This document shows positions 938-64,000 of a stretch of 64,000 bases of DNA, piece after piece. The notes beneath the pieces are model-generated. The model saw only the letters and a program-made list of their open reading frames with translations, ran no database searches and was not told where the DNA came from. Position 1 is the stretch's first letter; the number at the start of each line of letters is the position of its first letter. Source of the DNA: a virus; IMG/VR virus record IMGVR_UViG_3300050821_006345, positions 62,001-126,000 of that record; one strand, written 5' to 3'. A program made the translations under genes and the position numbers.

Positions 938-997
938 CTGGCCGTAAGATTAAGCCAGATTCAGCCAAGACACAACCAGCCGATTACCGCGAGAAGA

Positions 998-1351
998 TTA
1001 GAACGGAGCCTGTGGGTCGGATGAAGATGTGCCGGATGAAGTCGTGTAGAATGGACGGACTGTATTGTTGTTAAAATCCACTTCCTCTGCCGGATTGTAA
1101 TTCGGAATTGGCTGAACTGTCGGCCAAGGCGATCTCGGCACAATTTGTGGGCGACCTGGCGGGATGTTTCGCGCCGCGTTGGTTTGTCCGGCACGACGAA
1201 TCAATTCTGGCTCTGCAAACGATGGTTTATTGCGCTTCTTTGGCCTCTTTTTGCCGCACTCATCGCAATAGTGGCCGGGAGGCACGTCTGGACAATAACG
1301 GCACTTCTCGGAGACTGGGGCTTCAACCGAAATGTTGGCGTCACTTGGCAT
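998..1351 (-). CDS. Small zinc-motif protein with Pro-rich tail
   Basis: 117 residues from an ATG at 1351 that overlaps the stop of the upstream zinc-ribbon gene by 11 bases. Near residues 17-33 it has a CxxC ... CxxC pattern (CRYC, then CDEC), a likely single zinc site, followed by a basic KKRPKKR patch and a Pro/Asn/Thr-rich tail with no predicted fold. I do not recognise the family. Its place just upstream of the tape measure gene is where many tailed phages encode tail assembly chaperones, but zinc motifs are not typical of those, so no function is assigned. A longer open frame extends to 1486, but it would swallow the upstream gene. Confidence 0.65.
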   Translation of the reverse strand: MPSDANISVEAPVSEKCRYCPDVPPGHYCDECGKKRPKKRNKPSFAEPELIRRAGQTNAARNIPPGRPQIVPRSPWPTVQPIPNYNPAEEVDFNNNTVRPFYTTSSGTSSSDPQAPF

Positions 1352-1490
1352 CGAGGTCTTTAATCTTTGGCTTCGGCACGGTGAAGCACTCGAAGCAATG
1401 AGCGCATCGAACCCGTTCTCCGGCCTCAAACTTCTGGGCGTCGACTGGTTCCATGACCAGCGTGCAGTTGGGACATTTGATTTCACTCAT
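1341..1490 (-). CDS. 49-residue zinc-ribbon protein
   Basis: ATG at 1490, stop at 1341-1343. The product has CPNC near its start and CAHCFEC about 25 residues later, a compact four-cysteine zinc-ribbon pattern, with a Lys-rich C-terminus (KPKIKDLDAK). The stop overlaps the next gene's start, so the two are translationally coupled. Size and cysteine layout recall small phage zinc-finger regulators such as Mu Com, but the similarity is only in layout. A nucleic-acid-binding role is a guess. Confidence 0.6.
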   Translation of the reverse strand: MSEIKCPNCTLVMEPVDAQKFEAGERVRCAHCFECFTVPKPKIKDLDAK

Positions 1491-1575
1491 AATTAAAAAG
1501 GCGACTGGCGGCAAACACGAACCTTACTTAAGATTTCAGGTCGCAATTGGCTTGCAATCACCAGTCGCCAAACTT

Positions 1576-2490
1576 TTACCGCATCCGCGCCCATTCGTCA
1601 AGTTGATTTGAAAACTTGGCAATGGTTTCATTTCCGGCCAGACGAAGATTCTCCAGATCTTCATCGCTTACACCGTCAATCGGAAACGGATGCTTCAGCA
1701 CCGGCTGGATGCGGACGTAATCCTTTCCAATCATCTGCTCCATTTGATAGTCCACGTCCTCGCTTCCAGCCTCAAACAGCATTTGAACAGTGGCAGCGGC
1801 GGCTCTTATCGCTCCGCCGTTTATCATCTTTTCGGGATTGATGGATGCGGAAGACGAGCCACAGCCAAGCGAAAGGATTTTTACATTAAAATCGTCTCCC
1901 CAGAGCTTCACCGCATCGGCATAGGCGCACAGCGAAGGATTATTTGCGACATTCCCACCGTCCCAGAACACCTTGTCGCTCCAAGCATCTGGGCAGGAAA
2001 ATGCGGGAAAGTAGGTTTGCGCCGCGCTGGTGGCTCTTGCAACCCGCCAAAGGAAGTCGTTCTGACCATCAAGGTAGTTTTTGAAGAAATACGGCTTCTG
2101 ACTCACCAGTTCAAGTGATGTCACCAATAGCTTTGTTTTGCACCCATTTAGCTTCTGGTGCGCCAGACGTGTCTGAAGCACCCTTTCCAGCTGTCTGGCA
2201 GGATAACGCGGCAGAATCAATCCAAGAGCCCTCCACCAATGCTTTTTGAAGATGACCTTGCCGTCGACGGTGAAGAACTTGATGGCTTCGGCAGCCGGAA
2301 CGCCAGAGGCAAGCAGGCAGGCGAGGATGCCGCCGATGGAAGTTCCAGCAATTAAATCAAACATCGAGGCAATCGGCCTTCCGGCACGTCTTTCCAGTTC
2401 CACGAGAATGGCAGCCGGGATCATTCCACGTTGACCGCCGCCATCTAAACTTAAAACTCGAACGATTTTATTTTTCTTTTTAGTTGCCAT
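1576..2490 (-). CDS. Patatin-like phospholipase
   Basis: 304 residues with the full patatin signature. The oxyanion loop is DGGGQRG (about residues 15-21). The nucleophile elbow is GTSIGG (catalytic Ser about residue 50). The catalytic Asp is in WDGGNVANNP (about residue 177). Patatins are Ser-Asp dyad lipid acyl hydrolases that release fatty acids from membrane phospholipids. There is no signal peptide, so it acts in the cytoplasm or is carried in the virion. It lies between the exported-protein cluster and the tape measure. Patatins are also effectors of CBASS anti-phage systems, but no cyclase or other CBASS gene is nearby. Possible roles are membrane disruption at lysis, entry, or competition with other phages. 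Confidence 0.88.
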   Translation of the reverse strand: MATKKKNKIVRVLSLDGGGQRGMIPAAILVELERRAGRPIASMFDLIAGTSIGGILACLLASGVPAAEAIKFFTVDGKVIFKKHWWRALGLILPRYPARQLERVLQTRLAHQKLNGCKTKLLVTSLELVSQKPYFFKNYLDGQNDFLWRVARATSAAQTYFPAFSCPDAWSDKVFWDGGNVANNPSLCAYADAVKLWGDDFNVKILSLGCGSSSASINPEKMINGGAIRAAAATVQMLFEAGSEDVDYQMEQMIGKDYVRIQPVLKHPFPIDGVSDEDLENLRLAGNETIAKFSNQLDEWARMR

Positions 2491-2646
2491 AGCTTCTTGC
2501 CGGTGTGGCTAGCGCATCTTCCTGAGACCATCTCTATCATTTTCTCGCCATAAAATTATGCGACCGGAAGGGTCTTGCGACCTAGCACCATGGCTATCGC
2601 GCGTCCACGATGTGTTCTGGCGGACTTCCGGCCACTGCCAGATTGG

Positions 2647-3261
2647 TTAAAATCCCTTGTTCACTTCCAGGCCGCCGCAAATGTATTTGGCCGTCCAGAA
2701 TCCCGCGCCGATCCGGTCTTCGTAAAATCCAACCGCGCCCAGGTTCCAGCCGCCGCCGAACGTGACGAAGTTCAGCTTCGCGCCGGCGGTGACAATTTCC
2801 GAAACGGAACCGTTGCCCGTGGCCATCAGCACATTGGCAAACGGCGTCGCCGCCACGTTGGTCATTCCAAAGTTTTTAAGCGGATAAATGACCGCCGAAA
2901 GCGTGATGCCGCCCTTGACCAGGTTGGCCTGGGCTGGAATGCCTGATTTTTTCGATGTCCAAAGATAATCGTAGCCGACGACCAGCCCGACATTTTGCGA
3001 CACATTGTAAATGTAATCGGCGAACGCAAGATTGCGGTTGCCGGTGGTTGCCCGTCCGCCGCCGATAGCGATGGCATAATTGGTGGAGACGGTCACGGAG
3101 TCGTAAAGTTCCTGCAACCCGGAACTGAATGACGGCATGGCAGGTGCGGCATTGGTGACAATGACCGGCTGCGCGTTGAGGTTGCTGGTGATGCCCACTG
3201 CGACCAGTGCGGCGATGGCAACTACTAATCTAATGCTAATTTTGTTTAATTTAGTTTTCAT
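2647..3261 (-). CDS. Exported outer-membrane beta-barrel-like protein
   Basis: 204 residues. The N-terminus has a clear Sec signal peptide (Lys-rich start, hydrophobic core, likely cleavage after LNAQ near residue 31). The mature part is Gly- and aromatic-rich with alternating hydrophobic residues and ends in Phe, as many outer-membrane barrels do. The ATG at 3261 follows an A-rich leader without a Shine-Dalgarno sequence. It heads the end of a run of small exported proteins. A phage-coded barrel could alter the host surface, for example to block superinfection. Alternatively it is cargo acquired from the host. The exact family is not recognised. Confidence 0.65.
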   Translation of the reverse strand: MKTKLNKISIRLVVAIAALVAVGITSNLNAQPVIVTNAAPAMPSFSSGLQELYDSVTVSTNYAIAIGGGRATTGNRNLAFADYIYNVSQNVGLVVGYDYLWTSKKSGIPAQANLVKGGITLSAVIYPLKNFGMTNVAATPFANVLMATGNGSVSEIVTAGAKLNFVTFGGGWNLGAVGFYEDRIGAGFWTAKYICGGLEVNKGF

Positions 3262-3269
3262 TTTGTTTT

Positions 3270-3632
3270 TTATTTCGGTTGTGCCGCATCAGCGGCGGGT
3301 TGTGGTTTGGCTGCGGGTTCAGGATTTATTTCCAGCGCGGCGTGCTTTAGCACCGTGCCGACAATGCCGGTCTGCATTGAGTCGGGAACGCCCTTGCGGA
3401 GCAAGCGGGCGGAAACCCACGCGATGAATCCGGCGCTGGTCAAGCCGCTCAAATTGATTTGGTCAATGCAGTCCACGAACAGCTTCACCAAGTCGGCCTT
3501 GATGTTCGCCGGAATTGGCGCAGATGGTTGCGAAATGGGCGCGGTGGCCGCCGGCGCATTGGTGTTTTGCGCCATGACTGCCAGTGAGCAGAATATGACG
3601 CCGACCGTTATGATTGCGATGGTGGTTTTCAT
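3270..3632 (-). CDS. Small exported protein, hypothetical
   Basis: 120 residues from the ATG at 3632, whose first bases overlap the stop of the upstream gene (ATGA). It has an N-terminal signal peptide (likely cleavage after AVMAQ), then a Pro/Ala/Thr linker, a helical segment of about 60 residues with a second hydrophobic stretch (SAGFIAWVSARLL), and an Ala/Pro/Lys-rich tail. No family is recognised. A longer open frame reaching 3911 is out of context. Coupling to the single-span membrane gene upstream suggests a shared envelope role, possibly in lysis, which is only an inference. Confidence 0.6.
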   Translation of the reverse strand: MKTTIAIITVGVIFCSLAVMAQNTNAPAATAPISQPSAPIPANIKADLVKLFVDCIDQINLSGLTSAGFIAWVSARLLRKGVPDSMQTGIVGTVLKHAALEINPEPAAKPQPAADAAQPK

Positions 3633-3964
3633 TGGACTTCTTTTTTTGGTTGATTTACCTGCTGGACTAAAACTGGCTGCGCTTTGCAGGTGGTGGTGAC
3701 GGCGCGGATTAGCTCGTCGTGGTATGCCTTGTTGACCTCTACCACGGTCGCCAGCTTCCCGTTTTGCAAATCCTGCCCCTGCTTGATCTGGCGCATATAG
3801 TCGCGCTGTTCTTTCTGAATTTGCTGGGCAAGGTCTTCCCTCTTGGCATCGTGAATGCGCGTCCACAGCATTCCAATTGCCCCTAGCACAACGACAATGA
3901 GGGTAGCCCATTGTCCAAGGGACGTGTCGCTGTGAACATTGACCGGAACTTGGGCGAACATCAT
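3629..3964 (-). CDS. Single-span membrane protein with coiled coil, possible lysis protein
   Basis: 111 residues: one hydrophobic span (about residues 19-35, WATLIVVVLGAIGMLW) followed by a charged coiled-coil region rich in Gln, Lys and Glu. This layout is shared by single-span holins and inner-membrane spanins, but also by many unrelated small phage membrane proteins. It is translationally coupled (ATGA) to the exported protein downstream. No recognisable endolysin is adjacent. Two Met codons at 3964 and 3961 are both plausible starts. Membrane topology is well supported; a lysis role is speculative. Confidence 0.6.
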   Translation of the reverse strand: MMFAQVPVNVHSDTSLGQWATLIVVVLGAIGMLWTRIHDAKREDLAQQIQKEQRDYMRQIKQGQDLQNGKLATVVEVNKAYHDELIRAVTTTCKAQPVLVQQVNQPKKEVQ

Positions 3965-5017: not shown

Positions 5018-7714
5018 TTATTTGTGAACCACAGCGCCTTCAATGGTCTGGCTGGTTATTGTGGCGGCGGTGAATCCGAGTGTGAAGTTCGTCGGTGTTC
5101 TGGCGGTGACGGTTGCTCCCACCAAATCATTCGGCGCGGTTACGGTGTAATTTGTCGTCAGGTCAGGAAACCCGGAAATGTTCACCACCAGCGAAGTTGC
5201 CGCCGACAGGGTCGCGTTTGTTGAATAAGTCTGCGCCGATCCGGTGTAAGCCCCGACCGCCGAATACAAACCCGCAATCTCTGCATCCGACAACGCGCGG
5301 TTGAACATCTTCACGTCGTCTTCCGAACCGTTGTAAAATCCGGCGGCAGAATCAATGTAGCGGCCAATCGTCACACCCAGGCCGGAGTCAGCGTAAGTGT
5401 CAGTGACCGTCGCGCCGTCGCGCGCTCCGTTGATGTAGAATTGCATCACGCCGTTGCTGCGTTTCAGCGCCAGATGATTCCAGGCCGCGCCCGTCAGCGT
5501 GTTGCTGCCGGTCAGTTTAAATCCGCCGCCCTGATAAACCTGCGGATGGCCGCTGGTGTCGCAGGTGATCAGCAATGAGACCGTCCGCGCACCGCTGTCG
5601 CCGATCCTTGCCGTTTCCAGAATGGCCGGTGTCCCGGAAAATGAAGCCGGATTGAGCCAGAGCGAAATTGTGAAATCGCCCTGGCCGAACGGATAGCCGT
5701 CGGAACCGAGCGAATAGCTGCTGCTGCCATTGTAGGACAGCGCGCTGCCGGAACTCGTCGGATTGACGATGCCGGCCACCCAGGTCGTGCTGGTGTTGGT
5801 CAGAGTGTTCCAACTGAAATTGTTGTTGGCAGAATCAGCGTCAGTCGAGCCTGAACCCTCATCAAACGTCCAGTTGCGGACAGGCGTGACAATTGGTTCA
5901 AGCGTTTGCAGATAATTGGTGACAAGATACGATCTTTTGCCTTCGACAAAAAGATTGCCGATGCTCGTGTTGGTTCCCGCCAGATAAACCGGCTCACCCG
6001 CAATCAAATTGTTTGTGGCAATGTTTGAGAGCCTCGCTTCATCAAATTTCGAGTTCATCACAATTAATCCGTAGGAAAGGTTCATCAATTGGGAATTGTC
6101 AACGTAACTGAAATGCTGACCACAGTTCACATTGTTGATGATGGCGATTCCTACATTTCCACGCTGACCGTTGGCGTAAAAATAGTAGGGATTAAAATAG
6201 ACGGCGGGCAGTCCGAGATAGCCGAACACACCATTGATGGTAATGCGCTCCAGCCGGTTAGTGATGGTTAGGACGCGCACACCCGAGCCCGCATAGGCGT
6301 AATGATCAACATTGTTATTTGTGGTGGCGGAGACAAAAACATCCTCGACCAGCACGTCATTCATGCCGCCCCATGTGAAGGCTGGAATGCTCGTGTTGGT
6401 AACACCGTTGAGATAACCAAGCTGCTCATCCGGCGCGATGGTCACAGTATCATCACCGCCATTTCCGTGCATTCTGGCGATGTGAAGGAATCCGGTGTTC
6501 GGCCCCCAATTATGGCTCAAATCAGTCCCAAAAGAATAGTAAGTGGAATTTTGCCAGATGTCGTGTTGGTAAATGTTTTCTGAGTGTGAAGTCGTTATTG
6601 CAAAATTTGGGTTGCCATAAAAATAAATGTCATCGAGTTCGCAGTTTGTAATTGACGAAACAAAAACGCCCGCACCACCCCCGGTATAATTGCCGGCACG
6701 ATATTGGTTGGTTCCGTTTGCGTTTAGTGCAAAATTGCCGATGCGGATATTGAAGTTTCCGGGAACTTGGTTTGACCAGTTCAGGTTGGCAATTGCCGGG
6801 CAAGGAATGTTATTGTTCGTTCCCAAGTTGGTTGCCACAAAAAAACCAGAGCCCATCCCAACTCCAAGGAAGGCCACGTTGTTTGGAACAAAGATTGTTT
6901 TGTCAATCAACTCTGAATTGGAAATGGTCGTGTCATTCCAAAATGTGCCGCCGCCCGCCGCAGACAAGACCAGCAGGTTTGAATTGATGGCGGTGGACGC
7001 GCCGGTGCCGCCGCCGGTGTAAAAATTGCAGTTCTGCGGCACTCCGCATTGCGAGGCAATCATCCCACGGCCAGAATACCAAGCGTTCGTCACCGCGCCG
7101 GCGGCGGCGATGGCGGACACCGTGTTGGTGAATCCGGGCGTGTTGACCTGTGAAACATCAAACTTTCCAGACACGTTGTTGGACGTGACCGTGACCGAGG
7201 TTGGCAGCGCGCCAGCCGTCACGCCGGTCGCTGGAACGACATCCGCATTAGTCGCGTGCGTGGCCTGCGCCACCGCCGTGCTGACCTGACTGCCGAGAAT
7301 CGTGCCGGATAGATTCGCGGCGGATGTAGCCAACGGCACCGTGCCAGTCACCAGCGAACCCGCCACAGGAGCGGTATTGGTCGTCGCGGCGGATAGATTT
7401 CCAGAACCAACTCCAGCAGCAGGCACGGATACAGCGGTCGCCGCGCTTCCGGTCGTGCTGTTCGTCAGCGTGCCGATGAGGTTAGTGCCGTTTAACGGCG
7501 ACCCGTTCGTGAGCGTTCCACCAATCGGAAGGCCGTTTGTGCCAACCACGGAAGCAACGTTGGTGATGGTCTGGCCACCGGCGTCCAGCGGGGTCTGAAG
7601 CAGTCCGTTGGCGATGGGAAATTTCGCAGCGGACGCCGAAAGTGCAAATGACGCCAAAAACATGGCGACTGTAAGTCTTAATCGCATTCCGCCAATATAA
7701 TGTCTCAAAATCAT
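5018..7714 (-). CDS. Large fibre-like protein with beta-helix and LamG domains and a signal peptide
   Basis: 898 residues. Residues 10-29 look like a Sec signal peptide, with likely cleavage after SASA. Residues 30-215 are Thr/Asn/Ala-rich with repeated NLxGT and TNAxV-type turns, like phage tail-fibre shafts. Residues about 230-600 read as a right-handed parallel beta-helix with many Asn-rich turns. Residues about 615-790 form a LamG/concanavalin-type lectin domain (DGYPFGQGDFTISLWL ... NHLALKRSNG), followed by a short Ig-like tail. It probably binds host surface glycans. The signal peptide is odd for a virion protein and may indicate a secreted protein instead. A second Met at residue 10 gives a cleaner signal peptide. 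Confidence 0.75.
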   Translation of the reverse strand: MILRHYIGGMRLRLTVAMFLASFALSASAAKFPIANGLLQTPLDAGGQTITNVASVVGTNGLPIGGTLTNGSPLNGTNLIGTLTNSTTGSAATAVSVPAAGVGSGNLSAATTNTAPVAGSLVTGTVPLATSAANLSGTILGSQVSTAVAQATHATNADVVPATGVTAGALPTSVTVTSNNVSGKFDVSQVNTPGFTNTVSAIAAAGAVTNAWYSGRGMIASQCGVPQNCNFYTGGGTGASTAINSNLLVLSAAGGGTFWNDTTISNSELIDKTIFVPNNVAFLGVGMGSGFFVATNLGTNNNIPCPAIANLNWSNQVPGNFNIRIGNFALNANGTNQYRAGNYTGGGAGVFVSSITNCELDDIYFYGNPNFAITTSHSENIYQHDIWQNSTYYSFGTDLSHNWGPNTGFLHIARMHGNGGDDTVTIAPDEQLGYLNGVTNTSIPAFTWGGMNDVLVEDVFVSATTNNNVDHYAYAGSGVRVLTITNRLERITINGVFGYLGLPAVYFNPYYFYANGQRGNVGIAIINNVNCGQHFSYVDNSQLMNLSYGLIVMNSKFDEARLSNIATNNLIAGEPVYLAGTNTSIGNLFVEGKRSYLVTNYLQTLEPIVTPVRNWTFDEGSGSTDADSANNNFSWNTLTNTSTTWVAGIVNPTSSGSALSYNGSSSYSLGSDGYPFGQGDFTISLWLNPASFSGTPAILETARIGDSGARTVSLLITCDTSGHPQVYQGGGFKLTGSNTLTGAAWNHLALKRSNGVMQFYINGARDGATVTDTYADSGLGVTIGRYIDSAAGFYNGSEDDVKMFNRALSDAEIAGLYSAVGAYTGSAQTYSTNATLSAATSLVVNISGFPDLTTNYTVTAPNDLVGATVTARTPTNFTLGFTAATITSQTIEGAVVHK

Positions 7715-7736
7715 TTCACAACTCCGACTTTACCGC

Positions 7737-8273
7737 TTACGGTGCGGCCATCCAGTTCAGGACATAAAGACCTGAATCCGTTAATCCGTTCATGGTGAAC
7801 GTCCAGCCGTCACTGGTCGGTGAACCGGAAAGCGTGGCATATAAAACCAGTCCGTTCGCTGGCGACTGAACAGTCATTAAAACCTTGGTGGGAGTGAACG
7901 GCAGTGCCAGACCGGTCAGGGATGCGCCCTGCGAACTGTTGGGTATGGAATATGCTCCTGTTGCTGAATTGATGTAGACGACTGATCCTGTCAAAAGCTG
8001 ATCTACAGAGTATGTTCCAGTAGACGGAACCGAGATGTTGATGGTTGATGGACTGGATGAATTATTGTAGCCAAATGAAATTGTGTAAAGGCCAGGCTCA
8101 AGCGTCATCGACCAGTATCCGGTGGACGGATTGGTTTTGACCCTGGCCGTGAATGAGGCAATCAGAATCCCGCCAGCCATCGCGGTCGGTCCGGATGAGG
8201 AGATGGCCACCACCTCCGCATAAAGCGGGTCGGCGTCCACATCAAGGAGCGTTCCATATACTGTCACTGCCAT
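7737..8273 (-). CDS. Beta-rich tail-associated protein with repeated C-terminal domain
   Basis: 178 residues without a signal peptide. The N-terminal half looks like a carboxypeptidase-regulatory or Ig-like sandwich (YWSMTLEPGLYTISFG). The last 80 residues, from about GAYSIPN onward, closely match the C-terminal domain of the tail protein at 11330-12262: both contain SLTGLALPFTP or TLTGLALPFTP, then xMTVxS, then TSxGWxF and YVLNWxA. Such shared modules on separate virion proteins suggest a common docking or carbohydrate-binding domain. The stop of the upstream gene overlaps this start by 10 bases. The function is unknown. Confidence 0.7.
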   Translation of the reverse strand: MAVTVYGTLLDVDADPLYAEVVAISSSGPTAMAGGILIASFTARVKTNPSTGYWSMTLEPGLYTISFGYNNSSSPSTINISVPSTGTYSVDQLLTGSVVYINSATGAYSIPNSSQGASLTGLALPFTPTKVLMTVQSPANGLVLYATLSGSPTSDGWTFTMNGLTDSGLYVLNWMAAP

Positions 8274-8839
8274 AAAATCGCGTTTGTAATCGTGCCGCCG
8301 TTAATTATGAATGTGTCGTTCGTTGAAATCGGCTCGCAAAAATTATTCGTAACCGGAATCCAGTATCCGACTCCTGAATTGGTGTGGAAAAGGGTGCCGC
8401 CCGTTGCATATCCCCTCCAAAACCCCTTGCGCCCAAGATTTGTGTAAAGCACCCCGACAGAATATTGATTTGTCGGGTTTGATGTTGTTGTGAAAGATGG
8501 ATTGTTTGTGGCTGGCTGATAGCCAAGATTGACGCCTACCGTCGGGGTAACTGTTCCATCAGAGTTTGTCACCATTGAATTGGTCAATGGAGCGACGGAT
8601 ACAAACCCCTTTAGCACTGGAGTGTTGGTTGAAACCGCCCCTGAAAAAGTGCCGCTGAATGTTCCGGAGAGGTTTGCATTGGTGTCGTTGTTGGCAATCA
8701 GTCCGGTATTGGCCTTAAGCTGAGCAATATTGGTGGAGTTCACTACGTTGGTTCCGGCCCAATCCTGAATGTTCCAGTTTGCGGCAAACAGGCTGAATGC
8801 CAAAAAACAAAGCGCGAAAGATAGGGCAATTATTTTCAT
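8264..8839 (-). CDS. Exported Thr/Asn-rich fibre-like protein
   Basis: 191 residues. A signal peptide (IIALSFALCFLAFSLFA, then ANW) is followed by a Thr/Asn/Gly-rich repetitive body with LSGTFSGTFSGAV-type repeats and a possible knob near the C-terminus (GYWIPVTNN). The same exported, Asn/Thr-rich style is seen in the large fibre protein downstream, which suggests a shared appendage or surface role. The start overlaps the stop of the upstream gene. No specific family is recognised. Confidence 0.6.
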   Translation of the reverse strand: MKIIALSFALCFLAFSLFAANWNIQDWAGTNVVNSTNIAQLKANTGLIANNDTNANLSGTFSGTFSGAVSTNTPVLKGFVSVAPLTNSMVTNSDGTVTPTVGVNLGYQPATNNPSFTTTSNPTNQYSVGVLYTNLGRKGFWRGYATGGTLFHTNSGVGYWIPVTNNFCEPISTNDTFIINGGTITNAILWQ

Positions 8840-9831
8840 TATGACCAGCCTCCGGTTGATGGAACTGAATATGTTCCGGTTGTTTTAATCATGGTTTTTA
8901 TGTAAACGCCGCCTGTAATCATAACGTATTGGTCGCCAGCCTTGCCTGAAAGCAATGCCGAATTCGGGTCTGCTGATCCAGTGTATGTGGTCGGCAGCTG
9001 CGTTAACGCCTGAAGTGCCGCGATGTTGGCCGTGATGGTCGCCAGACTGATGCCGGTCGGATACCTTGCGTCACCAGCCGCCACCGTCAGGTAGGTCGGC
9101 GTGAAAACCGATGCTGGCGCGGGCATGGCAATGCCGGTGTCGATGATGGATGACTGGCCGTATCCGACCTGCTGCTCGGTCGAGTAATTCTCGTAAATCG
9201 TGGCCGTGATTGCGCTTGTGCCAGATCCGTTAAGCGTCGCCGTGGTTGCCGTGGCGGTGAACTGGCCGGAGGTGGTGAGCGTGGTCGAGCCACAGACAAT
9301 GGATGTGTCGTTTGCTCCTTTTGTCCAATAGTAGGATGCTCCGACGACCAGGCCGGCTGCGGTCGCTGCGCCGGCCACATAGCTGCCCGCTGGCGCATAG
9401 TTGGTGTCGCCGATGAAATTGCTGGTCGCAACCAAAGAAGCCCAAAGATACGCCTGCGATCCGGAGACGTAGATGTTCGTGGCCGCTCCTGTGAAAACCA
9501 CAATGCAGTGCTGGTCAGTTCCAGCGCTCCAGTTGTTTATGGTCAATCCAGTGTTCCATGCCACACCACCCTCTGGAAGATAGGAGGCCGTGCCAGCCAC
9601 GGCCTGCGTCAGAATCGGGCCATTCTGACCGTTGATGTCCATGAAGTTAACCGTCATGGTCGCCCAGCTGGTGATGTCAATCAAAGCCCCATTCAGAAAG
9701 AATCCAAGCTCGAACTGGATGTCCGCGCCGCGAACCAGCGATGGAATGCCTCCAGTGATCTGGTCAACCAGTGTTCCCTGCTGGGCAAGATCAACGGCGA
9801 TTCTTATTCTTTGGCGTTTCTGGCTGCTCAT
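8839..9831 (-). CDS. Tail / baseplate-like structural protein
   Basis: 330 residues, no signal peptide. The N-terminus (about 1-150) resembles the BppU/upper-baseplate style that describes an input polynomial-type function (FELGFFLNGALIDITSW). The middle is Ala/Thr-rich, and residues about 245-270 contain YLTVAAGDARYPTG, a motif common in phage fibre and baseplate proteins. The C-terminus ends in TGTYSVPSTGGWS. The start overlaps the upstream stop (ATGA). It likely links tail and fibres; assignment is by motif and order only. Confidence 0.65.
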   Translation of the reverse strand: MSSQKRQRIRIAVDLAQQGTLVDQITGGIPSLVRGADIQFELGFFLNGALIDITSWATMTVNFMDINGQNGPILTQAVAGTASYLPEGGVAWNTGLTINNWSAGTDQHCIVVFTGAATNIYVSGSQAYLWASLVATSNFIGDTNYAPAGSYVAGAATAAGLVVGASYYWTKGANDTSIVCGSTTLTTSGQFTATATTATLNGSGTSAITATIYENYSTEQQVGYGQSSIIDTGIAMPAPASVFTPTYLTVAAGDARYPTGISLATITANIAALQALTQLPTTYTGSADPNSALLSGKAGDQYVMITGGVYIKTMIKTTGTYSVPSTGGWS

Positions 9832-10259
9832 GGTGCGATATTAACGCTTGAAATTAACCCACCGCTGATGGAATACGAGTGGGAAGTTGTCCGTCCAGTG
9901 TGCTTGGACTCGGTGGTCTTCACCACAGCGTTCGTTAAATAGTAATTTGTGCCGCCAACCGTCTGGAAAACTACGGTGCCTCCTCCCGGAATTGTTGATG
10001 CGTGAAGCAGGATATATGATTCGGCCAGTTGAACCGTTGAAAAATATCTCGTAACACTGAACGAAACCGAGGTCTGCATATTTCCACGGTCGCTATCCCT
10101 TGCCGCCATCGCCCTTAACGCCTGCCGAACCTGTGTATTGCGTTCGGTGTGGATGGCCAGGCCATTGGGCGAACTTATGCCGCCGGGCGCGAGAATGAAT
10201 GTGGCCGGATTAGGAAGGGGTGTGCCAGCTGAAACTACTGCGTTGATGGTGACAATCAT
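9828..10259 (-). CDS. Conserved tail-region protein, hypothetical
   Basis: 143 residues, beta-rich, with no signal peptide or membrane span. Noted features are a SVSFSVTRYFSTVQLAESYIL segment around residue 70 and a C-terminal KTTESKHTGRTTSHSYSISG stretch resembling virion proteins that describe a per-element geometry. It sits between the tail tube-like gene and the baseplate-like gene and overlaps the latter's start by four bases, so it is probably a virion component. I do not recognise the family. Confidence 0.6.
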   Translation of the reverse strand: MIVTINAVVSAGTPLPNPATFILAPGGISSPNGLAIHTERNTQVRQALRAMAARDSDRGNMQTSVSFSVTRYFSTVQLAESYILLHASTIPGGGTVVFQTVGGTNYYLTNAVVKTTESKHTGRTTSHSYSISGGLISSVNIAP

Positions 10260-15211: not shown

Positions 15212-17791
15212 TTAAGCCTTGTGTGGCCGAATTTGCCAGTCCACTTCAGAATGCTGTGCCAGATGTTTAATCGGAATCTTAAAGCTTGTTAAATCACGGC
15301 CTTCGCCCCAGTAGCTCGCCGCGTGGCTCTTGTCCGGTGAAACAAAGATGCCTTCTGGATATTCTCCTGCCTTAATCTTTGAAATGACATCCGATGGCTG
15401 GCTGGTATAAACGCGCACCTGCTTGTCTCCGATACCCATCGCCTCATTCACCAAGTCCATCGTTTCCGGAGTTGCCTCGTCGTTTCCTTCAAACATCTCC
15501 TTTTTGCCGTCCTTGCTTAATAGCAGTCCGACTGTGTTTGGGTCGTTCTTGGCCGAAATATAAACCGGAACCGGCCAGACGCCGTCAGGATTGTCGTCAA
15601 ACAACGCCTGACTGGTTACGAGCCTTCTGGTTAAGTCTTTTTGATTGAATGGAATATCCCCCATCAGTTTGTGAACTTCGTCGTTCAGGTCATTGGCCAG
15701 TTTCAGAACGTGGTCTCCAGCTGGCTTGTTCTCGAAGTCGGCCAGAGTTTCAAGATGAATCTGGTCGTCACTTTTCCTCCCACGGGAGAATCTGGACTCT
15801 CGGTCAAGGTTCTCCTTCACGTCGTCCCACGTTATCGGATGCGGTGATGATTCGCCTTTCGGCAGGCTTCCTCCAACTTGACCCACCCGTCCTTCGTGGC
15901 CTTCAAACGAATTGAGAAGCCGTTTTTTAAGTGCGGCCTTTCTGGTTCGTGAGTTGGCGAGTTTTACAACTGGCTTCGGAAACTGGCCAGCAACCGGCTT
16001 GCTTAAATCACCGCCCTTGATCCACTGCTCAAACTGGCCGAAATCCAATTTTGTAACAGCACCGATTCTCTCATGTCCCCTTCCATCGGAGAACGCCCGC
16101 TTGTAGCAGTCGGTCGCCTGCTTCTCGTCTTGAAAGCCAATCATGCACTTTCTCTCGTCTGGATTTCCAGTCTCCGCGTCCACTTGATCGATGACAAACA
16201 CGGAAGCGGTGTCGCTTGGATTGGTGGATAAATAGCAGTCCAGCAAGTCTCCATCTTGGGTGCCTTTTTTCGTCCCCTTCACCCCGCCATAATCACTCGG
16301 CATGACCACCGTCCAAACCTTGCCGTCTTTGCCGATTCCAGAACGGACACTTCCGGCCAGTGACTCAATACTAATTCCGAGCGTTTTGTAGGTGGTGTGG
16401 GTTTGGCGATAATTTCCGGCCTTGGATTGTTTTGGCGTGGGAACGCGGCCAAGTCCTTTGTGCGGCAGGGCGTTGGTGATTTTTAATTCTGGCCTTTTGC
16501 CAACAATCACTTCTTCGTATGTTCCCGTTAAGCCGACGTTGACAGCCACAATATCGTCCACTGGAATAGACTTGGTGATTATATTTCCGCCGTATTGCTC
16601 TGCACCAGACTTGGTTGTTGCCCAGTTCTTTGTGGCCTTCTGCTTCTGCAATCCTTCCGACCGATACAGCGTCATTGAATCTCCAAAGTTGCTGCGAAGC
16701 TCATTTCTTGTTGGCGTGAAGCAGTCGTATAATTCAGATGCGGAAACCCGGCTGTTTCGGCCATCCATTATGTTGTCAACCGCCGTGTTTGTTCCCATGC
16801 CAACTCCGATCGCAGCCTCGGTGATTGCGTTGTAAACATCCCGATTTTTCATCAGGTCGTTTCTGGCCGTTAAAACAACCGAGGATGGGATTGCGCTTTT
16901 CCGGTCGGCAGGAGACTTTATATCCTCGATGGTCTTCGGCCTTGCCAAGTCGTAACGCAGCGAGTTGGCCTCGGCGTTCAGTGCGATAAATCTGGACGCC
17001 TCCGATGCTGTTAAGCCGCCCTTTTGAGCCAGCGGCATGATTTCGGATTTGATGGCGTTTAATCGGCCAATCATAGTCGGCCTGTCGGTGACGTGGCCTT
17101 TTAAGCCAGATCCGACCCCGCCGTTAGCCACCACAACCACCGGATTTGCCTTCCAGCGGCCTATTACGGCGTTCAGAAGCTCGAACTGCGGCTTGGGGGA
17201 CACCGTTTTCGGCAAATAAGCGTTTAACAGGCCGTGTAGCGTTGCCCGGATGGTCTTGGGCGAGGCTTTGGCCTTCAGCAGGGCGGAAGCGGTGTTTTTA
17301 ATGGCCAGAGGAAGCGGAATGGCGAAGTTTTTAACCTTCTCGTCCATGTTTACATGATAAACATCAGCCGTCTTGTCTCCGAGAAGTTTTCTGGCAGTCA
17401 GCCTATGATTTCCATCGGCGATGTATTGCTTGCCTCCTTTTTGAACCACCACCGGCTTGTCAAGCTGGTCGTCTGATGGCTCGGATGCCTTTCTTGAGTC
17501 ATCTCCGCGTTCAATGATGTCTTTTACTTTTGGCTCAAAGAACTCGTTGGTTCCGGTAAGATCGTCCAGATTGACGGTTTTCACTGTTTTTGGACCGCGC
17601 AGACGACGCCTTAATTCTTCCGTATCGTAGGGTGCCGCATGATCGCCGGATTTGAATATACTGTGCGTCCAGTTTTTCTCATCTGGAAGCCGTGGCAGTT
17701 TTTCAAGAGATGATAGCGCGCCAGCCTTTCGCACCTCCCACGCCTTCTTGACGCCCACACTTGTGCCTGCGTTGAGTAGCTTCCGCTTCAT
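15212..17791 (-). CDS. Polyvalent multi-domain protein (ParB-like, ART-like, pyrophosphatase-like)
   Basis: 859 residues with no signal peptide. Several enzyme-like modules follow one another. At about 65-150 is a ParB/sulfiredoxin-like fold with the ADGNHRLTARKLLG motif. At about 370-435 is an ADP-ribosyltransferase-like segment (LYRSEGL ... ITKSIPV ... GTYEEVIVG). At about 475-595 is a segment like the inorganic-pyrophosphatase domain of phage polyvalent proteins (GDLLDCYLST). At about 790-855 is a second ART-like segment (VYTSQPS ... GIFVSPDK). Such proteins are thought to be packaged and injected to counter host defence. It sits between head connector genes, so virion packaging is plausible. 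Domain calls are from motifs only. Confidence 0.7.
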   Translation of the reverse strand: MKRKLLNAGTSVGVKKAWEVRKAGALSSLEKLPRLPDEKNWTHSIFKSGDHAAPYDTEELRRRLRGPKTVKTVNLDDLTGTNEFFEPKVKDIIERGDDSRKASEPSDDQLDKPVVVQKGGKQYIADGNHRLTARKLLGDKTADVYHVNMDEKVKNFAIPLPLAIKNTASALLKAKASPKTIRATLHGLLNAYLPKTVSPKPQFELLNAVIGRWKANPVVVVANGGVGSGLKGHVTDRPTMIGRLNAIKSEIMPLAQKGGLTASEASRFIALNAEANSLRYDLARPKTIEDIKSPADRKSAIPSSVVLTARNDLMKNRDVYNAITEAAIGVGMGTNTAVDNIMDGRNSRVSASELYDCFTPTRNELRSNFGDSMTLYRSEGLQKQKATKNWATTKSGAEQYGGNIITKSIPVDDIVAVNVGLTGTYEEVIVGKRPELKITNALPHKGLGRVPTPKQSKAGNYRQTHTTYKTLGISIESLAGSVRSGIGKDGKVWTVVMPSDYGGVKGTKKGTQDGDLLDCYLSTNPSDTASVFVIDQVDAETGNPDERKCMIGFQDEKQATDCYKRAFSDGRGHERIGAVTKLDFGQFEQWIKGGDLSKPVAGQFPKPVVKLANSRTRKAALKKRLLNSFEGHEGRVGQVGGSLPKGESSPHPITWDDVKENLDRESRFSRGRKSDDQIHLETLADFENKPAGDHVLKLANDLNDEVHKLMGDIPFNQKDLTRRLVTSQALFDDNPDGVWPVPVYISAKNDPNTVGLLLSKDGKKEMFEGNDEATPETMDLVNEAMGIGDKQVRVYTSQPSDVISKIKAGEYPEGIFVSPDKSHAASYWGEGRDLTSFKIPIKHLAQHSEVDWQIRPHKA

Positions 17792-46189: not shown

Positions 46190-46402
46190 TTAGCCAAAAG
46201 CCGATTTAATTGGAATTGAGGATGTGTTTCCGCCGTTTTCAAACTCGGCGAAGTTCAAATTCAAATACAGGTGGTCATCGTGCGGGTGAACTGTCACGGA
46301 TACTGGATTGGCCAAATAATCACTGCCTTTCGGCCTGAATTTAATCTTAACCGAATTTAGGTCGGATTCAACACCGACGATTTGAGTGTATTGCACTTTC
46401 AT
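46190..46402 (-). CDS. Small beta-rich protein, paralogue of 61122-61331
   Basis: 70 residues from the ATG at 46402. It begins MKVQYTQIVGVESD and contains KIKFRPKGSD and FAEFENGGNT, each nearly identical to the protein at 61122-61331 (YTQIVGVESD, KIKFRPQGSD, FAEFNDGGNT). The two genes lie 15 kb apart in different operons, so one was duplicated. A TTGACT promoter lies just upstream. Function unknown. Confidence 0.65.
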   Translation of the reverse strand: MKVQYTQIVGVESDLNSVKIKFRPKGSDYLANPVSVTVHPHDDHLYLNLNFAEFENGGNTSSIPIKSAFG

Positions 46403-46419
46403 ATCTTTATCATGCAAAC

Positions 46420-59412: not shown

Positions 59413-60759
59413 TTAGGCCATTGAAATTTCTTCCGTCACAGGAATCCTGATAGATAGCTTGCGGCGATAGTATTGTCCGGCAATTGATCCAGCCTTGCCG
59501 CCAGCTGCGACGGTGACCGACCATCCTTCATGACGGTCGCTGCGCCATTCGTCGCCCTTGATAATCTGCTCTCCGTCCTCAAGCAGACGATAGCCGTCTC
59601 CGGCCACTATTGCTGGCAATTCAGATTTAACTCTGCGCCGATAAATCGTGGTCGGATACGGAGGCTGGCCGACAATGTGGCCGGGAGAGACTGTGATTGA
59701 CCAGATGCCCCTGACTCCGAGCCACTGGTCTCCAGTTTGAACGGCATCGCCATCCTTTAATTGAACGTATCCTTCTCCAACGTCAACCTGCGACTCTGGT
59801 TTTGCTTCCGACTTTTCAATCAGCATCTTCTTGCGTCGGATTAACTGTGCTGCTCCGGCTGGATTGCCAAGATACTGGTCGTGGACTCGACGCCAGCCAT
59901 CTGGCGCTTTTACCTCATCCGAACCAATAAGAATCTCGGCTGGCAGAAGCCTGCGATACCCTTCACCAACGTCCTCGTCCGGCTCGGCCTCGGCAGCGGT
60001 GCAGGCCGGACCACATGGTGTCTCGCCCCCGTTGGATTCTTGCGACCAGAAGTGGAAGCAGTCGGGACAGAGAAAACTGCCAGACCCATCAGCCTCGGCG
60101 TTAAACCTCCCGCACGATGGACACTGGATGTCACCAGCGGCTGGCGTCTCGTCCTCAATGTCCCACTCTCGCTGTGCGCCGCTGTATTTCGTCGCTCCAC
60201 CGTAAGGGCGATGGCTTGTGAAGTTCCAGTAGTTATTCGAGTATTCACAATCGCCAACCCTTGTGAACTGGCCGTAAGTTTTAACCGTTCCATCTGGCCG
60301 CAGAACCACGAACCTGTTTCCGGTTGAAATATGGTTGAGGATGCCCTCTCCGCGCATAGAAACAATCCGCGCCAGAACCATCGAGTCGGATGCGAACTCC
60401 GGATATTTCACTCCCGCAAGCTGCGCCATGTATTTCCAATCTTGGATTGTGCCGTTATGGAAGAACACCGGACAGTTGGTCACTCCGTCCATGTCGGCGT
60501 TGTGCTTTCTTTTGACAACGAATGGATGGCACAGGGCGGGAATCACCTTGCCGACCGATGCAATGCGGAAATGGAAGATGTGCGGGAACGGCTTGTTGGC
60601 GACCAAGTCCTGCATCTGTTCTGCGGTGATTCCCTTCTTGAAATGGACAAATCCATTCTCCGCCCACGCCACGCCGCCGCCGTGAGGATTCTTGTCCTGA
60701 CATTTATACAATGTAGGAAGGTCTGGGTCTTTAGTGGGAGCTACAACGATGACGCACAT
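59413..60759 (-). CDS. Class II glutamine amidotransferase with zinc ribbon and three repeats
   Basis: 448 residues. The N-terminal Cys2 (MCVIVVAPTKDPDLP) is the Ntn-hydrolase nucleophile that releases ammonia from glutamine. NPHGGGVAW, FHFRIASVG and FFHNGTIQDW are further class II amidotransferase motifs. Residues about 213-240 form a zinc ribbon (CPSCGRF ... CPDCFHFW). Three repeats follow, each GxGYRxLxxGE ... GDxW ... YRR, at about residues 275-330, 345-390 and 400-440. It sits at the end of an operon with an amidoligase, GGCT-like and alanine racemase genes. It probably supplies ammonia for amide formation, or amidates a substrate. Confidence 0.85.
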   Translation of the reverse strand: MCVIVVAPTKDPDLPTLYKCQDKNPHGGGVAWAENGFVHFKKGITAEQMQDLVANKPFPHIFHFRIASVGKVIPALCHPFVVKRKHNADMDGVTNCPVFFHNGTIQDWKYMAQLAGVKYPEFASDSMVLARIVSMRGEGILNHISTGNRFVVLRPDGTVKTYGQFTRVGDCEYSNNYWNFTSHRPYGGATKYSGAQREWDIEDETPAAGDIQCPSCGRFNAEADGSGSFLCPDCFHFWSQESNGGETPCGPACTAAEAEPDEDVGEGYRRLLPAEILIGSDEVKAPDGWRRVHDQYLGNPAGAAQLIRRKKMLIEKSEAKPESQVDVGEGYVQLKDGDAVQTGDQWLGVRGIWSITVSPGHIVGQPPYPTTIYRRRVKSELPAIVAGDGYRLLEDGEQIIKGDEWRSDRHEGWSVTVAAGGKAGSIAGQYYRRKLSIRIPVTEEISMA

Positions 60760-60770
60760 TTGATTTTATA

Positions 60771-61076
60771 TTAAATTATTGCCCGCTGGCCGTTTTGAGT
60801 CAGGCCGAACATTGTTAATCCGTTTGCCGAGTTGACTGCACCGACAAGGCCAATTTGGCCGGCCTCTGAAATTGCGCTCATGATTTCCTCTTTCGTTAGG
60901 CCGGTTCGGGTCGCCAGACCGCCGACGCCGTGAACCTTGAACTGCTTGTTGTTCTTCATCTCAAGCAGGACAATCCGCGTCTCCCGATTGAGGCAGAAGT
61001 TGCGCGGACGGGCAAGGCCGCGATTGTCTCCGCCGCCTTCCGTATTATCCTTTGTTGTTCTCATGTTGTCGCTCAT
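60771..61076 (-). CDS. Small hypothetical protein of the amide operon
   Basis: 101 residues from the ATG at 61076 (61088 is an alternative). A basic patch (NRGLARPRNFCLNRETRIV), then a winged-helix-like segment (TRTGLTKEEIMSAISEAGQIGLVG). No family recognised; position ties it to the amide-chemistry operon. Confidence 0.55.
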   Translation of the reverse strand: MSDNMRTTKDNTEGGGDNRGLARPRNFCLNRETRIVLLEMKNNKQFKVHGVGGLATRTGLTKEEIMSAISEAGQIGLVGAVNSANGLTMFGLTQNGQRAII

Positions 61077-61121
61077 AACGTATTCCATTAAGCATGGTAA
61101 AACAATCCGCTCGTTGCAAGG

Positions 61122-61331
61122 CTAATTGACAGGACCGATAGAAAGTGATTTCGTGTTTCCTCCGTCGTTGAACTCCGCAAAGCTCAAACTCAAATGTAAA
61201 TATGAGGCGTGGGGAGTAACTGTAACAGATTGTGGATTATCACTGGCGTCGCTTCCTTGCGGCCTGAATTTAATCTTAACCGAGACTTGATCGGATTCAA
61301 CTCCGACAATTTGAGTGTATGGCACATTCAT
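61122..61331 (-). CDS. Small beta-rich protein, paralogue of 46190-46402
   Basis: 69 residues with ATGA overlap with the alanine racemase stop. YTQIVGVESD, KIKFRPQGSD and FAEFNDGGNT match the paralogue at 46 kb. It is the fifth gene of the amide operon, so its duplicate may have a related use elsewhere in the infection. Function unknown. Confidence 0.7.
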   Translation of the reverse strand: MNVPYTQIVGVESDQVSVKIKFRPQGSDASDNPQSVTVTPHASYLHLSLSFAEFNDGGNTKSLSIGPVN

Positions 61332-62473
61332 ATTTTATCTCCGTTCACAAATTTCTTTTTCAGCCGAATACCAAAGTTGGTGAAAACGTCATAGGTCACC
61401 GAGTCCTTCAGCTTGGCCAGCTCATGGACACCGATGCGATCCGTTCCCTGACCGCCCATGATTGCCGCTTCGTCTCCAGTCTTGGCCTCTGGTATGCCGG
61501 TGACGTCCACCATCATTGAATCCATGGAGTTGCCACCGAGCGTCGGTGCTTTCTGGCCGTGAATTAAAACGTGGCCCTTGTTGCAAAGCCTCGGCATCCC
61601 GTCGCCGTAGCCCATCGGAAGCACAGCCACTCTCCGCTCTGACGTCGCCGTGTAATTCATTCCGTAACCCACGGTCTCGCCGCGTTTAACTTTCTGAATT
61701 GCGGCAATCTTGGCCTTGACGCTCATGACCTGACGGATGCCTTCAATCTTCCGGCAGCCAAAAGGAGTCACTCCTGTGTAAAGGATTCCAGAGCGCACCA
61801 TATCGTATTGGGCGTGGGGAAGATTAAGATGGCCTCCGCTGTTGCAGGCCGAAACGATGCCGGGACTGATTCCTGCTGATTCCATCCCGCCGAGAACTGA
61901 TTCAAACCGCTCCAGCTGAAGCATGGCGAACGTCTTGTCGGAAGCGTAAGACTTGGCGAAGTGGGTCATCGTGCCTTCAATCTGAATGTTGGCCATCAAA
62001 GCGACTTGAGAAATCAAAGGCATGGCCTCGTCCCACCGGACTCCGTATCGGCTCATGCCGGTTTGAATCTCAATGTGAACAGGAATCTGCCTTCCGATTT
62101 TCTCCGCAGATTGGTTTAATTTTGCGATGTTATTCAGGTCGCCGGAGCAGATGGTTATTCCATGCTCGGCGCAAAATTCAATTTCGGAAGGATGCCGCTC
62201 GTAGAACAGAACAATCTTGCAGGCATCTGGCAGAAGTCCGCTGCTCCGCAGTTTCCACGCCTCGTCAACAGTTGAAACAGCAAGCCCCCATGCTCCGGCT
62301 TGGAGTGCAAGCTGGCCAACCGTGACGGCATCGTGGCCGTAGGCGTCGTCTTTCAGCACGGCCAGATACTTTACCTTGGCCGGAATGTCGGCTCGGATTA
62401 GTTGAAGGTTCTTGCGAAGCTTGGCAACGTCAATCTCAACCCAAGCGGCACGGTCTGGAGGATTCACTGGCAT
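61328..62473 (-). CDS. alr: Alanine racemase
   Basis: 381 residues. The PLP-binding Lys41 is in YLAVLKDDAYGH, matching the VKANAYGH-type motif; the second catalytic base, Tyr270, is in VGYGMNYTA. Other family features are present: NSGGHLNLPHAQYDMVRSGI, the barrel end, and the C-terminal beta domain with VLPMGYGDGMPR. The enzyme interconverts L- and D-alanine, needed for peptidoglycan and for D-Ala-containing modifications. It overlaps the GGCT-like gene upstream by 10 bases and the small paralogue downstream by four. A phage-coded racemase is unusual. Confidence 0.92.
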   Translation of the reverse strand: MPVNPPDRAAWVEIDVAKLRKNLQLIRADIPAKVKYLAVLKDDAYGHDAVTVGQLALQAGAWGLAVSTVDEAWKLRSSGLLPDACKIVLFYERHPSEIEFCAEHGITICSGDLNNIAKLNQSAEKIGRQIPVHIEIQTGMSRYGVRWDEAMPLISQVALMANIQIEGTMTHFAKSYASDKTFAMLQLERFESVLGGMESAGISPGIVSACNSGGHLNLPHAQYDMVRSGILYTGVTPFGCRKIEGIRQVMSVKAKIAAIQKVKRGETVGYGMNYTATSERRVAVLPMGYGDGMPRLCNKGHVLIHGQKAPTLGGNSMDSMMVDVTGIPEAKTGDEAAIMGGQGTDRIGVHELAKLKDSVTYDVFTNFGIRLKKKFVNGDKI

Positions 62474-62982
62474 ACTTCCTCCAGTAGATGGCGGGCTTCT
62501 CTGGCATCGCGGTAGTTATCGCCACCCGGATCAGGAACTGATTGGAAATCCTCCAGTTCTTCAATGTAGGCGGATGGCAGATTGTTTTGTTTTGCTCCGA
62601 CAACGACAAGTTGCAGATACCAATCGTAAATCGGAAGCCCTCCGGCAGTCCGGTCGGAATTGTGAAAGGCGCAGACAACCACGCCAAGCTCCGGTGAATT
62701 GACGGACATCTCGAAAACCGAGTAGCCCTTTTCCATTTCAGAAAGCGCGGAAAACTCCGATTCCGGCATCTCGTAAATAACGCCCCAGACACTGGATGCC
62801 TCGGCCACGACCAAATTTGCCTTGCCGCACTGCATTCCGTTCTTGCGGGTGGATATTTTGCCGAAGCAAATCTTCAGGCCGACGGCCTTGCCAGTGCCAA
62901 TCTTCCTTGCACTTGGACATCTGGCCTGAATGCGCTCCTTGAGCAAATTCGATCCGTAGCTGAAATACTTAATCGCGTTCAT
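62464..62982 (-). CDS. Gamma-glutamylcyclotransferase-like protein
   Basis: 172 residues from the ATG at 62982. The start FSYGSNLLKERIQ matches the YGSN substrate-binding loop of the GGCT/AIG2-like family. VWGVIYEMPESEFSALSEMEKGY holds the conserved segment with the catalytic Glu. Members cleave gamma-glutamyl amides to 5-oxoproline, or act on related gamma-glutamyl-amine conjugates. It overlaps the alanine racemase start. In this operon it may trim or recycle the amide made by the amidoligase. Confidence 0.8.
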   Translation of the reverse strand: MNAIKYFSYGSNLLKERIQARCPSARKIGTGKAVGLKICFGKISTRKNGMQCGKANLVVAEASSVWGVIYEMPESEFSALSEMEKGYSVFEMSVNSPELGVVVCAFHNSDRTAGGLPIYDWYLQLVVVGAKQNNLPSAYIEELEDFQSVPDPGGDNYRDAREARHLLEEVCQ

Positions 62983-62986
62983 GTAA

Positions 62987-63214
62987 TTATTTTGAAGCCG
63001 CCGCGAGGCCCATGCCAATATACTTGTCAGCTTTTGGCTTCGTAAAATAAACAATCACGCCGCGTTTGGGAATGATTGGGAAATCCTCTGCCGAAAGCAG
63101 CCCACGAAGCAGGAATCTGTCTGTCACCAAACATTTTACCGGATTTTTTACATTGGCAGGAACCAAATCCTCTTCGCCAATTTTAGCCACGCTGTAACTT
63201 GATGTTTTATTCAT
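62987..63214 (-). CDS. 75-residue protein of the amide operon
   Basis: 75 residues from the ATG at 63214 (a longer frame to 63526 overlaps the amidoligase). NKTSSYSVAKIGEEDLVP, then IVYFTKPKADKYIG, a compact beta/alpha pattern. It is directly under the promoter at 63266-63294. Function unknown. Confidence 0.6.
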   Translation of the reverse strand: MNKTSSYSVAKIGEEDLVPANVKNPVKCLVTDRFLLRGLLSAEDFPIIPKRGVIVYFTKPKADKYIGMGLAAASK

Positions 63215-63265
63215 ATCGTTATTTTCTTTCCGCGTTTCGGATTCTTCACCCTCGACGCTGGACAG

Positions 63266-63294
63266 AGGATGCTTTATTGGCCAAAGCAAGTCAA
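63266..63294 (-). promoter_or_regulatory. Internal promoter of the amide operon
   Basis: TTGACT (63289-63294), 17 bases, CATCCT (63266-63271), after the amidoligase stop (63307) and before the 75-residue gene. It matches the promoter at 55261-55289. Transcripts would have a leader of about 45 bases. Confidence 0.5.
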
Positions 63295-63306
63295 CCGAAA
63301 TAATCT

Positions 63307-63966
63307 CTATTGCATCAGCTCCAGAAGCTCCGGAGGCAGCTCGCTCTTGCGGGCATGGCTCTGCGCGGTGAAGGCGACGTGGATTGGGCTGTTGGTCAGG
63401 TAGTCCTCGACGCACTTGACGATGCGGGTCACTCCGTCCACGGCAATGTTGACGTCCTTGAACGTCGGCAGCATCCGGCACTCCGCCGTCTTGTGAAGAC
63501 CCCAGCAGAAGTTCCATTGCGTCCATCGTTCACCAGTTCCCTTGGACGTGGCTTTGATCTGCATCTCCGGCTTCCATTCTTTTTTGCAGAACTTGTTTTC
63601 TCCGGCCAGCCGCGAGAAGAAATGCTTGTTGGTCGTCCGGCGTTTGCCCCATGCGGCCATCTCCTCAAGGAAGAATTCTTGGAAACGACGGTCGATGATT
63701 CGAGCGTAGTTAATCGGATTCTTCAGGCTGACATGGACGTGGAGGCCGCAGGTTGAGTTGGTGTGCGGCGGATAGACCCGCCTCATCCACTGGTCGAGTT
63801 CAATCAGATTCTCGGTCGGATGCGAAACATATTCTCTAGATGTTATGCCGGATTCGCTGAAGCTCACCGATCCGTCGGAGTGAGCCGAACCGGGTTCTGG
63901 TGGAGGAAGGTTTCCGCTGTTCCAGCCGCCCTCAATTTCAACGCCAACTTTGTGAATGTGGTTCAT
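63307..63966 (-). CDS. Amidoligase (Amidoligase_2-like)
   Basis: 219 residues from the ATG at 63966 (a TTG 12 bases upstream is the alternative). The signature is GVEIEGGW (metal or ATP-binding acidic residues), HSDGSVS (second acidic site), TSREYVSHP and CGLHVHVSL, in the order of the amidoligase fold, a relative of glutamine synthetase. Later QWNFCWGLHKTAECRML and VDGVTRIVKCVEDYL complete the domain. Such enzymes use ATP to join a carboxylate to an amine. It is the first visible gene of the operon with the GGCT-like protein, alanine racemase and glutamine amidotransferase. Confidence 0.85.
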   Translation of the reverse strand: MNHIHKVGVEIEGGWNSGNLPPPEPGSAHSDGSVSFSESGITSREYVSHPTENLIELDQWMRRVYPPHTNSTCGLHVHVSLKNPINYARIIDRRFQEFFLEEMAAWGKRRTTNKHFFSRLAGENKFCKKEWKPEMQIKATSKGTGERWTQWNFCWGLHKTAECRMLPTFKDVNIAVDGVTRIVKCVEDYLTNSPIHVAFTAQSHARKSELPPELLELMQ

Positions 63967-64000
63967 ATTAAGCTTCAAGTGGAATTACCGCGTAAATTAC

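Follow-up and report, generated by a model that had tools for sequence, protein, structure and literature searches.

Layout and viral setting of the locus

On the minus strand between positions 59413 and 63966 of the window (the whole stretch of 64,000 nucleotides analyzed, positions 62001 to 126000 of the 132,191-b IMG/VR virus record IMGVR_UViG_3300050821_006345) lie four enzyme genes and, interspersed with them, three small open reading frames (ORFs). The enzymes are an amidoligase, a gamma-glutamylcyclotransferase (GGCT)-like protein, an alanine racemase (Alr), and a class II glutamine amidotransferase (GATase). In the order of transcription, an Amidoligase_2-type, glutamine synthetase (GS)-like COOH-NH2 ligase (219 aa; 63307..63966) is followed by an open frame of 75 aa (MNKTSSY...; 62987..63214), the GGCT/AIG2-like protein (172 aa from an internal ATG; 62464..62982), a fold type III PLP alanine racemase (381 aa; 61328..62473), the small protein p69 (61122..61331), the open frame p105 (60771..61088), and a class II (Ntn, Cys2) GATase (448 aa; 59413..60759). 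The initial annotation had named the same four enzymes, and family searches, relatives, and catalytic residues bear it out, the catalytic residues being retained in all four proteins on sequence comparison. It had also described the genes as overlapping, which holds for GGCT and alr (10 nt) and for alr and p69 (4 nt) but not for the remaining genes, which are separate, with small ORFs between them.

The source is an uncultured bacterial virus, represented by a 132-kb record. The window also encodes a portal, a capsid, a maturation protease, and a DnaB-type helicase, and its G+C content is uniform throughout. A Pfam search with p105 returned zero matches, and its best PHROGs match was phrog_11942 (E = 0.02). 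Its neighbor p69 has a paralogue at 46190-46417, with similarity at the protein level and 87% at the DNA level over 93 bp, so that alr is embedded among true phage genes. The two paralogues (p69 at 61122-61331, minus strand) belong to separate gene clusters and share the pattern YTQIVGVESD...SVKIKFRP.GSD. A terminase gene with an intein lies toward the opposite end of the record, outside the window; this large terminase (record positions 940-3669) is split by the intein, which has a LAGLIDADG-like endonuclease domain. Also outside the window, an RtcB-type RNA ligase adjoins a protein with a WGR domain and an ATP-dependent DNA ligase domain (record positions 7670-8851 and 8854-9999). Within the window, residues 447-606 of an 859-aa protein (15212-17791, minus strand) match a region common to many dissimilar large phage proteins, with PHROGs matches to minor head protein, DarB-like antirestriction, and endolysin families, and patatin-like phospholipase motifs (SLDGGGQRG and GTSIGG) were seen by eye in a gene that opens the window (1576-2490, minus strand).

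Amidoligase, GATase, and GGCT-like protein

The amidoligase gene begins with an ATG at the 63966 end, and an alternative TTG at 63978 is likewise open. Its product matched PF12224 at E = 0.0015 (18.9 bits), under the gathering score of 22, and its identity stands despite this score because of its relatives, its conserved catalytic columns, and a fold search. A three-row alignment scanned against IMG/VR recovered 12 relatives on other viral contigs at 26-34% identity. A lack of the acidic ATP and metal sites, which would have spoken against the initial annotation, is not seen: Glu10, Glu12, Asp31, His76, His78, Asn152, Glu162, and Arg164 are invariant in an eight-row alignment, leaving the E.E / D / H.H / N / E.R sites of GS-like amidoligases intact. 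An AlphaFold (AF2) model of moderate confidence (pLDDT 69.6, pTM 0.74) matched numerous proteins annotated as phage amidoligases, among them the one from Pseudomonas phage tf (E values of 1e-5 to 1e-3), and weakly matched glutamine synthetase and YbdK (E values of 0.06 to 0.2). A tblastn search for the amidoligase in phage or plasmid records gave zero matches, and scans of IMG/VR with the single amidoligase, GATase, or Alr protein returned no relatives.

The GATase similarly scored under the gathering score of its Pfam family (GATase_6, E = 1.6e-4, 22.2 bits against 27), and its assignment stands because of its relatives and conserved catalytic columns. Cys2, Arg65, Asn102, Gly103, and Asp125 are conserved among relatives and supply the nucleophile, Arg, Asn-Gly, and Asp of a class II glutamine site. 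As the initial annotation had noted, the C terminus carries a CPSC...CPDC zinc ribbon and three GYRLL..GE...GDEW-like repeats, and a PDB sequence search with the GATase matched zinc ribbons only. The repeats (59413-59970, minus strand) form three tandem GYRLL..GE...GDEW...YRR-like units appended to the enzyme, and the strict motif is absent elsewhere among the record stretches searched. The GGCT-like protein matched AIG2_2 (E = 6.3e-11), phrog_2520 (GGCT; E = 6e-5), and human GGCT (E = 4e-15), and it retains the YGSNLL loop and a Glu aligned with the catalytic Glu98 of the human enzyme.

A GATase of the same family is the next recognized gene downstream, on the same strand, in 11 of the 12 amidoligase relatives, a count that represents fewer independent cases since L047/L048, L050/L051, and L055/L056/L057 are near-copies. 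In most of them the GATase gene directly follows or overlaps that of the amidoligase; in L046 a 71-aa ORF intervenes. Two of the 12 (L052 and L053) resemble our locus in combining GGCT, amidoligase, and a GATase with C-terminal CxxC motifs, but they differ from it in adding a PF14395 COOH-NH2 ligase and a RimK/R2K-like ATP-grasp protein and in having no racemase. Annotated phages with both amidoligase and GATase include MEP402 and a Christensenellales phage; in a Bifidobacterium phage, the protein upstream of the GATase gives no Pfam match. In phage C75C1 (OQ984151) and Podoviridae sp. ctfjg026 (MW202828), GATase and GGCT also occur together but are fused in one protein, with a PF12224 amidoligase gene ~0.9 kb upstream of the fusion in C75C1 and no racemase annotated in the stretch in either. 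The pairing of amidoligase with GATase is thus real and recurrent, often in the company of a GGCT.

In the collections searched, the racemase is peculiar to this phage. The initial annotation had called for a search for all four genes in related phages; the link between amidoligase and GATase was recovered, whereas no amidoligase-relative record has an alanine racemase. A search for the Alr C-terminal domain found it in none of these 12 records, which may be fragments, and detected it in 8 of 14 control genomes. The PF14395 ligase was not detected in our 132-kb record, which may itself be incomplete, and no RimK-type ATP-grasp was matched in it, although a divergent one could escape; both were detected in L052 and L053. 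Neither a D-Ala-D-Ala ligase homologue nor a QueC/7-deazaguanine homologue was found in the genome.

The alanine racemase

The racemase is identified unambiguously from its sequence, scoring 306.7 bits against TIGR00492 (cut-off, 168) and matching both Ala_racemase_N (8e-55) and Ala_racemase_C (3.4e-37). It shares the full-length two-domain fold and catalytic residues of bacterial Alr/DadX (TIGR00492; PDB 5irp and 8zpe), from which it differs in its viral location and in its distance: its best bacterial relatives are 34-40% identical, and none was found above 40%. Lys41, Tyr270, Arg142, Arg227, Asp318, and Tyr361 are all retained. From established knowledge of Alr enzymes, we take Lys41 to be the PLP lysine and Tyr270 the catalytic tyrosine, the pair that the initial annotation had pointed out. 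By motif, the carbamylated-Lys position is occupied by Glu135 and the Cys311 position by Ser316. A GGAGG sequence precedes the ATG, and the catalytic model of the VanT serine racemase scored 269.7 bits, under its cut-off of 460. The gene is apparently working, with alanine as the predicted substrate.

In a 28-sequence tree, Alr groups loosely with its best bacterial relatives on the longest tip branch of the group (1.32 changes/site). This branch and the identity of at most 40% to the bacterial Alr proteins found indicate that the gene was not copied from a host recently, and the retention of the active site despite such divergence points to a gene long resident under selection, or to one from a donor not yet sampled, as opposed to recent contamination.

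A PHROGs search with Alr gave no racemase match. Scanning IMG/VR with an Alr alignment returned 14 viral loci, seven of which (L021, L022, L025, L026, L027, L033, and L034) were read gene by gene: in five, alr lies beside a bacterial dnaB, in L021 beside a PemK-like gene, and the L027 locus is truncated on the 5' side. Match tables suggest that the remaining seven are mostly copies of these. A PF12224 search of all 14 records, run without a positive control, found no amidoligase. Two gut "phage" records, MT835478 and MT835527, were rejected as sources of a phage alr; in each, the Alr locus resembles that of a clostridial chromosome and has a PemK-like gene after it. Among the phage and IMG/VR matches whose neighborhoods were inspected, most are of bacterial chromosomal origin, as dnaB-alr loci or Firmicutes-type loci with a downstream PemK-like gene. 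None of the loci inspected showed a phage alr standing on its own. An IMG/VR scan with the single terminase protein returned no relatives, and six DnaB relatives were without a racemase. With most inspected viral alr loci representing host chromosome, the gene described here is apparently a rare real instance of a phage-borne alanine racemase.

Possible role in cell wall modification

The initial annotation had pointed to genome-mining work suggesting a link between amidoligase, GATase, and GGCT, and this association is already described as a phage cassette in PMC5498523, PMC10580990, PMC11318856, and PMC10945688. According to PMC5498523, RIO-1-like podoviruses have a "peptidoglycan modification cassette" that comprises a gamma-glutamyl amidoligase, a second amidoligase, an ATP-grasp protein, a GGCT, and a GATase; it is common to phiEco32, 7-11, PA11, tf, LUZ24, PaP3, and CW02, occurs in PSA-HP1 as well as RIO-1 (citing Iyer 2009 and Hardies 2013), and is hypothesized to change the cell surface and block superinfection. 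Parts of the cassette are reported in PMC10580990, PMC3890496, and PMC11318856, the last describing prophages of Clostridium clostridioforme LM41 with amidoligase and GGCT (phrog_2443 and phrog_2520) and, in the part covered, not mentioning a racemase. In keeping with the initial annotation, which knew of no phage version with a racemase, a search of open-licence papers found none described in such a cassette within the text covered; nor did the literature sections searched establish by experiment what a phage amidoligase makes or acts on.

As in the cassette of phiEco32, LUZ24, tf, PaP3, RIO-1, and PSA-HP1, amidoligase, GATase, and GGCT are here clustered on one strand. Unlike the phiEco32/LUZ24-type arrangement, the locus is without a detectable PF14395 gamma-glutamyl ligase or ATP-grasp protein, carries alr between the GGCT and GATase genes, and lies in a 132-kb record rather than a small podovirus genome (46,267 bp in tf). 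On balance, it probably represents a reduced variant of the known amidoligase-GATase-GGCT cassette that gained a built-in alanine racemase; the amidoligase/GATase/GGCT part is already known, and the racemase is the new element. The link between racemase and cassette comes from one genome, no relative carrying the racemase.

Going by related systems and by what is known of the families, glutamine would most likely be the source from which the GATase draws ammonia or a gamma-glutamyl group. The GS-like amidoligase would spend ATP on linking a carboxylate, most probably one on a wall precursor, through an amide or peptide bond, and the GGCT would cleave gamma-glutamyl amides for recycling or trimming. 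The racemase would make D-Ala from the L-Ala of the host, and this D-Ala would either serve the ligase as its amine substrate or sustain wall-precursor synthesis, so that the phage may supply its own D-alanine. A wall modified in this way would exclude superinfecting phages. We infer these activities, the substrates (D-Ala included), the wall as target, and superinfection exclusion from the enzyme families present. Because PF14395, RimK-type ATP-grasp, and D-Ala-D-Ala ligase proteins were undetected in the record, formation of a single amide or addition of a single D-Ala is likelier than assembly of a peptide in several steps. Much more tentatively, we speculate that phage-made D-Ala could be ligated by the amidoligase and GATase onto a wall-precursor carboxylate, with the GGCT trimming the gamma-glutamyl side. 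The initial annotation had proposed that the set makes, and can remove, a D-Ala- or gamma-glutamyl-containing modification; of this reading, the gene identities, the intact active sites, and the functional link between amidoligase and GATase are borne out, co-occurrence of all four genes in relatives is not, and the D-Ala-containing product is hypothetical.

It is possible, though less likely, that the racemase is instead an auxiliary metabolic gene in its own right that came to lie between cassette genes and tops up D-Ala for wall synthesis in the infected cell, chemically unlinked to the amidoligase. Phage gene order is mosaic, the racemase is missing from all cassette relatives found, and the amidoligase and GATase genes, adjacent in those relatives, are here split by GGCT, alr, and small ORFs. 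However, alr overlaps GGCT by 10 nt and p69 by 4 nt on the same strand, which suggests co-translation, and the inspected loci offered no example of alr standing free in a phage. A role of the set in host nitrogen or amino acid metabolism, with ammonia shuttled among glutamine, glutamate, and gamma-glutamyl compounds, is improbable. Such a role was proposed for the Planctomycetes phage ZRK32, which encodes the same enzyme types (GATase, amidoligase, glutathione synthase, and GGCT) and promotes growth on nitrate or ammonium, but the tests described in the portion of PMC10945688 covered concern the whole phage rather than single enzymes, and the other literature, in the sections covered, favors the cell surface. 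Moreover, the racemase would bring nothing obvious to nitrogen assimilation.

We think it similarly doubtful that the ligase acts on a host or phage protein, a DNA base, or a small metabolite rather than the wall. Amidoligase relatives are reportedly predicted to act on proteins and metabolites as well, going by the title of Iyer 2009 as given in citing papers, and class II GATase domains are found in 7-deazaguanine pathways too; yet the genome is without a QueC homologue, and an enzyme making D-alanine points to wall chemistry over proteins or DNA. Misassembly of bacterial sequence into a viral contig, which the mostly host-chromosomal neighborhoods of other viral alr genes might bring to mind, is hardly credible given the capsid, portal, and helicase in the same window, the terminase on the same contig, the even G+C, and the overlap of alr with cluster genes on both sides, one of which (p69) has a paralogue elsewhere in the phage.

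The reading of the locus as a cassette with a built-in racemase bears on the phages in which such cassettes recur, many in number and with a substrate that is hypothesized in the literature sections covered. A dedicated racemase hints at a D-amino acid and hence at wall peptides, making this version a testable hint at the chemistry of the cassette. If phage-made D-Ala were indeed the substrate, a D-Ala-containing amide would form in the host wall during infection. The small set of ligase, GATase, GGCT, and racemase suits reconstitution.
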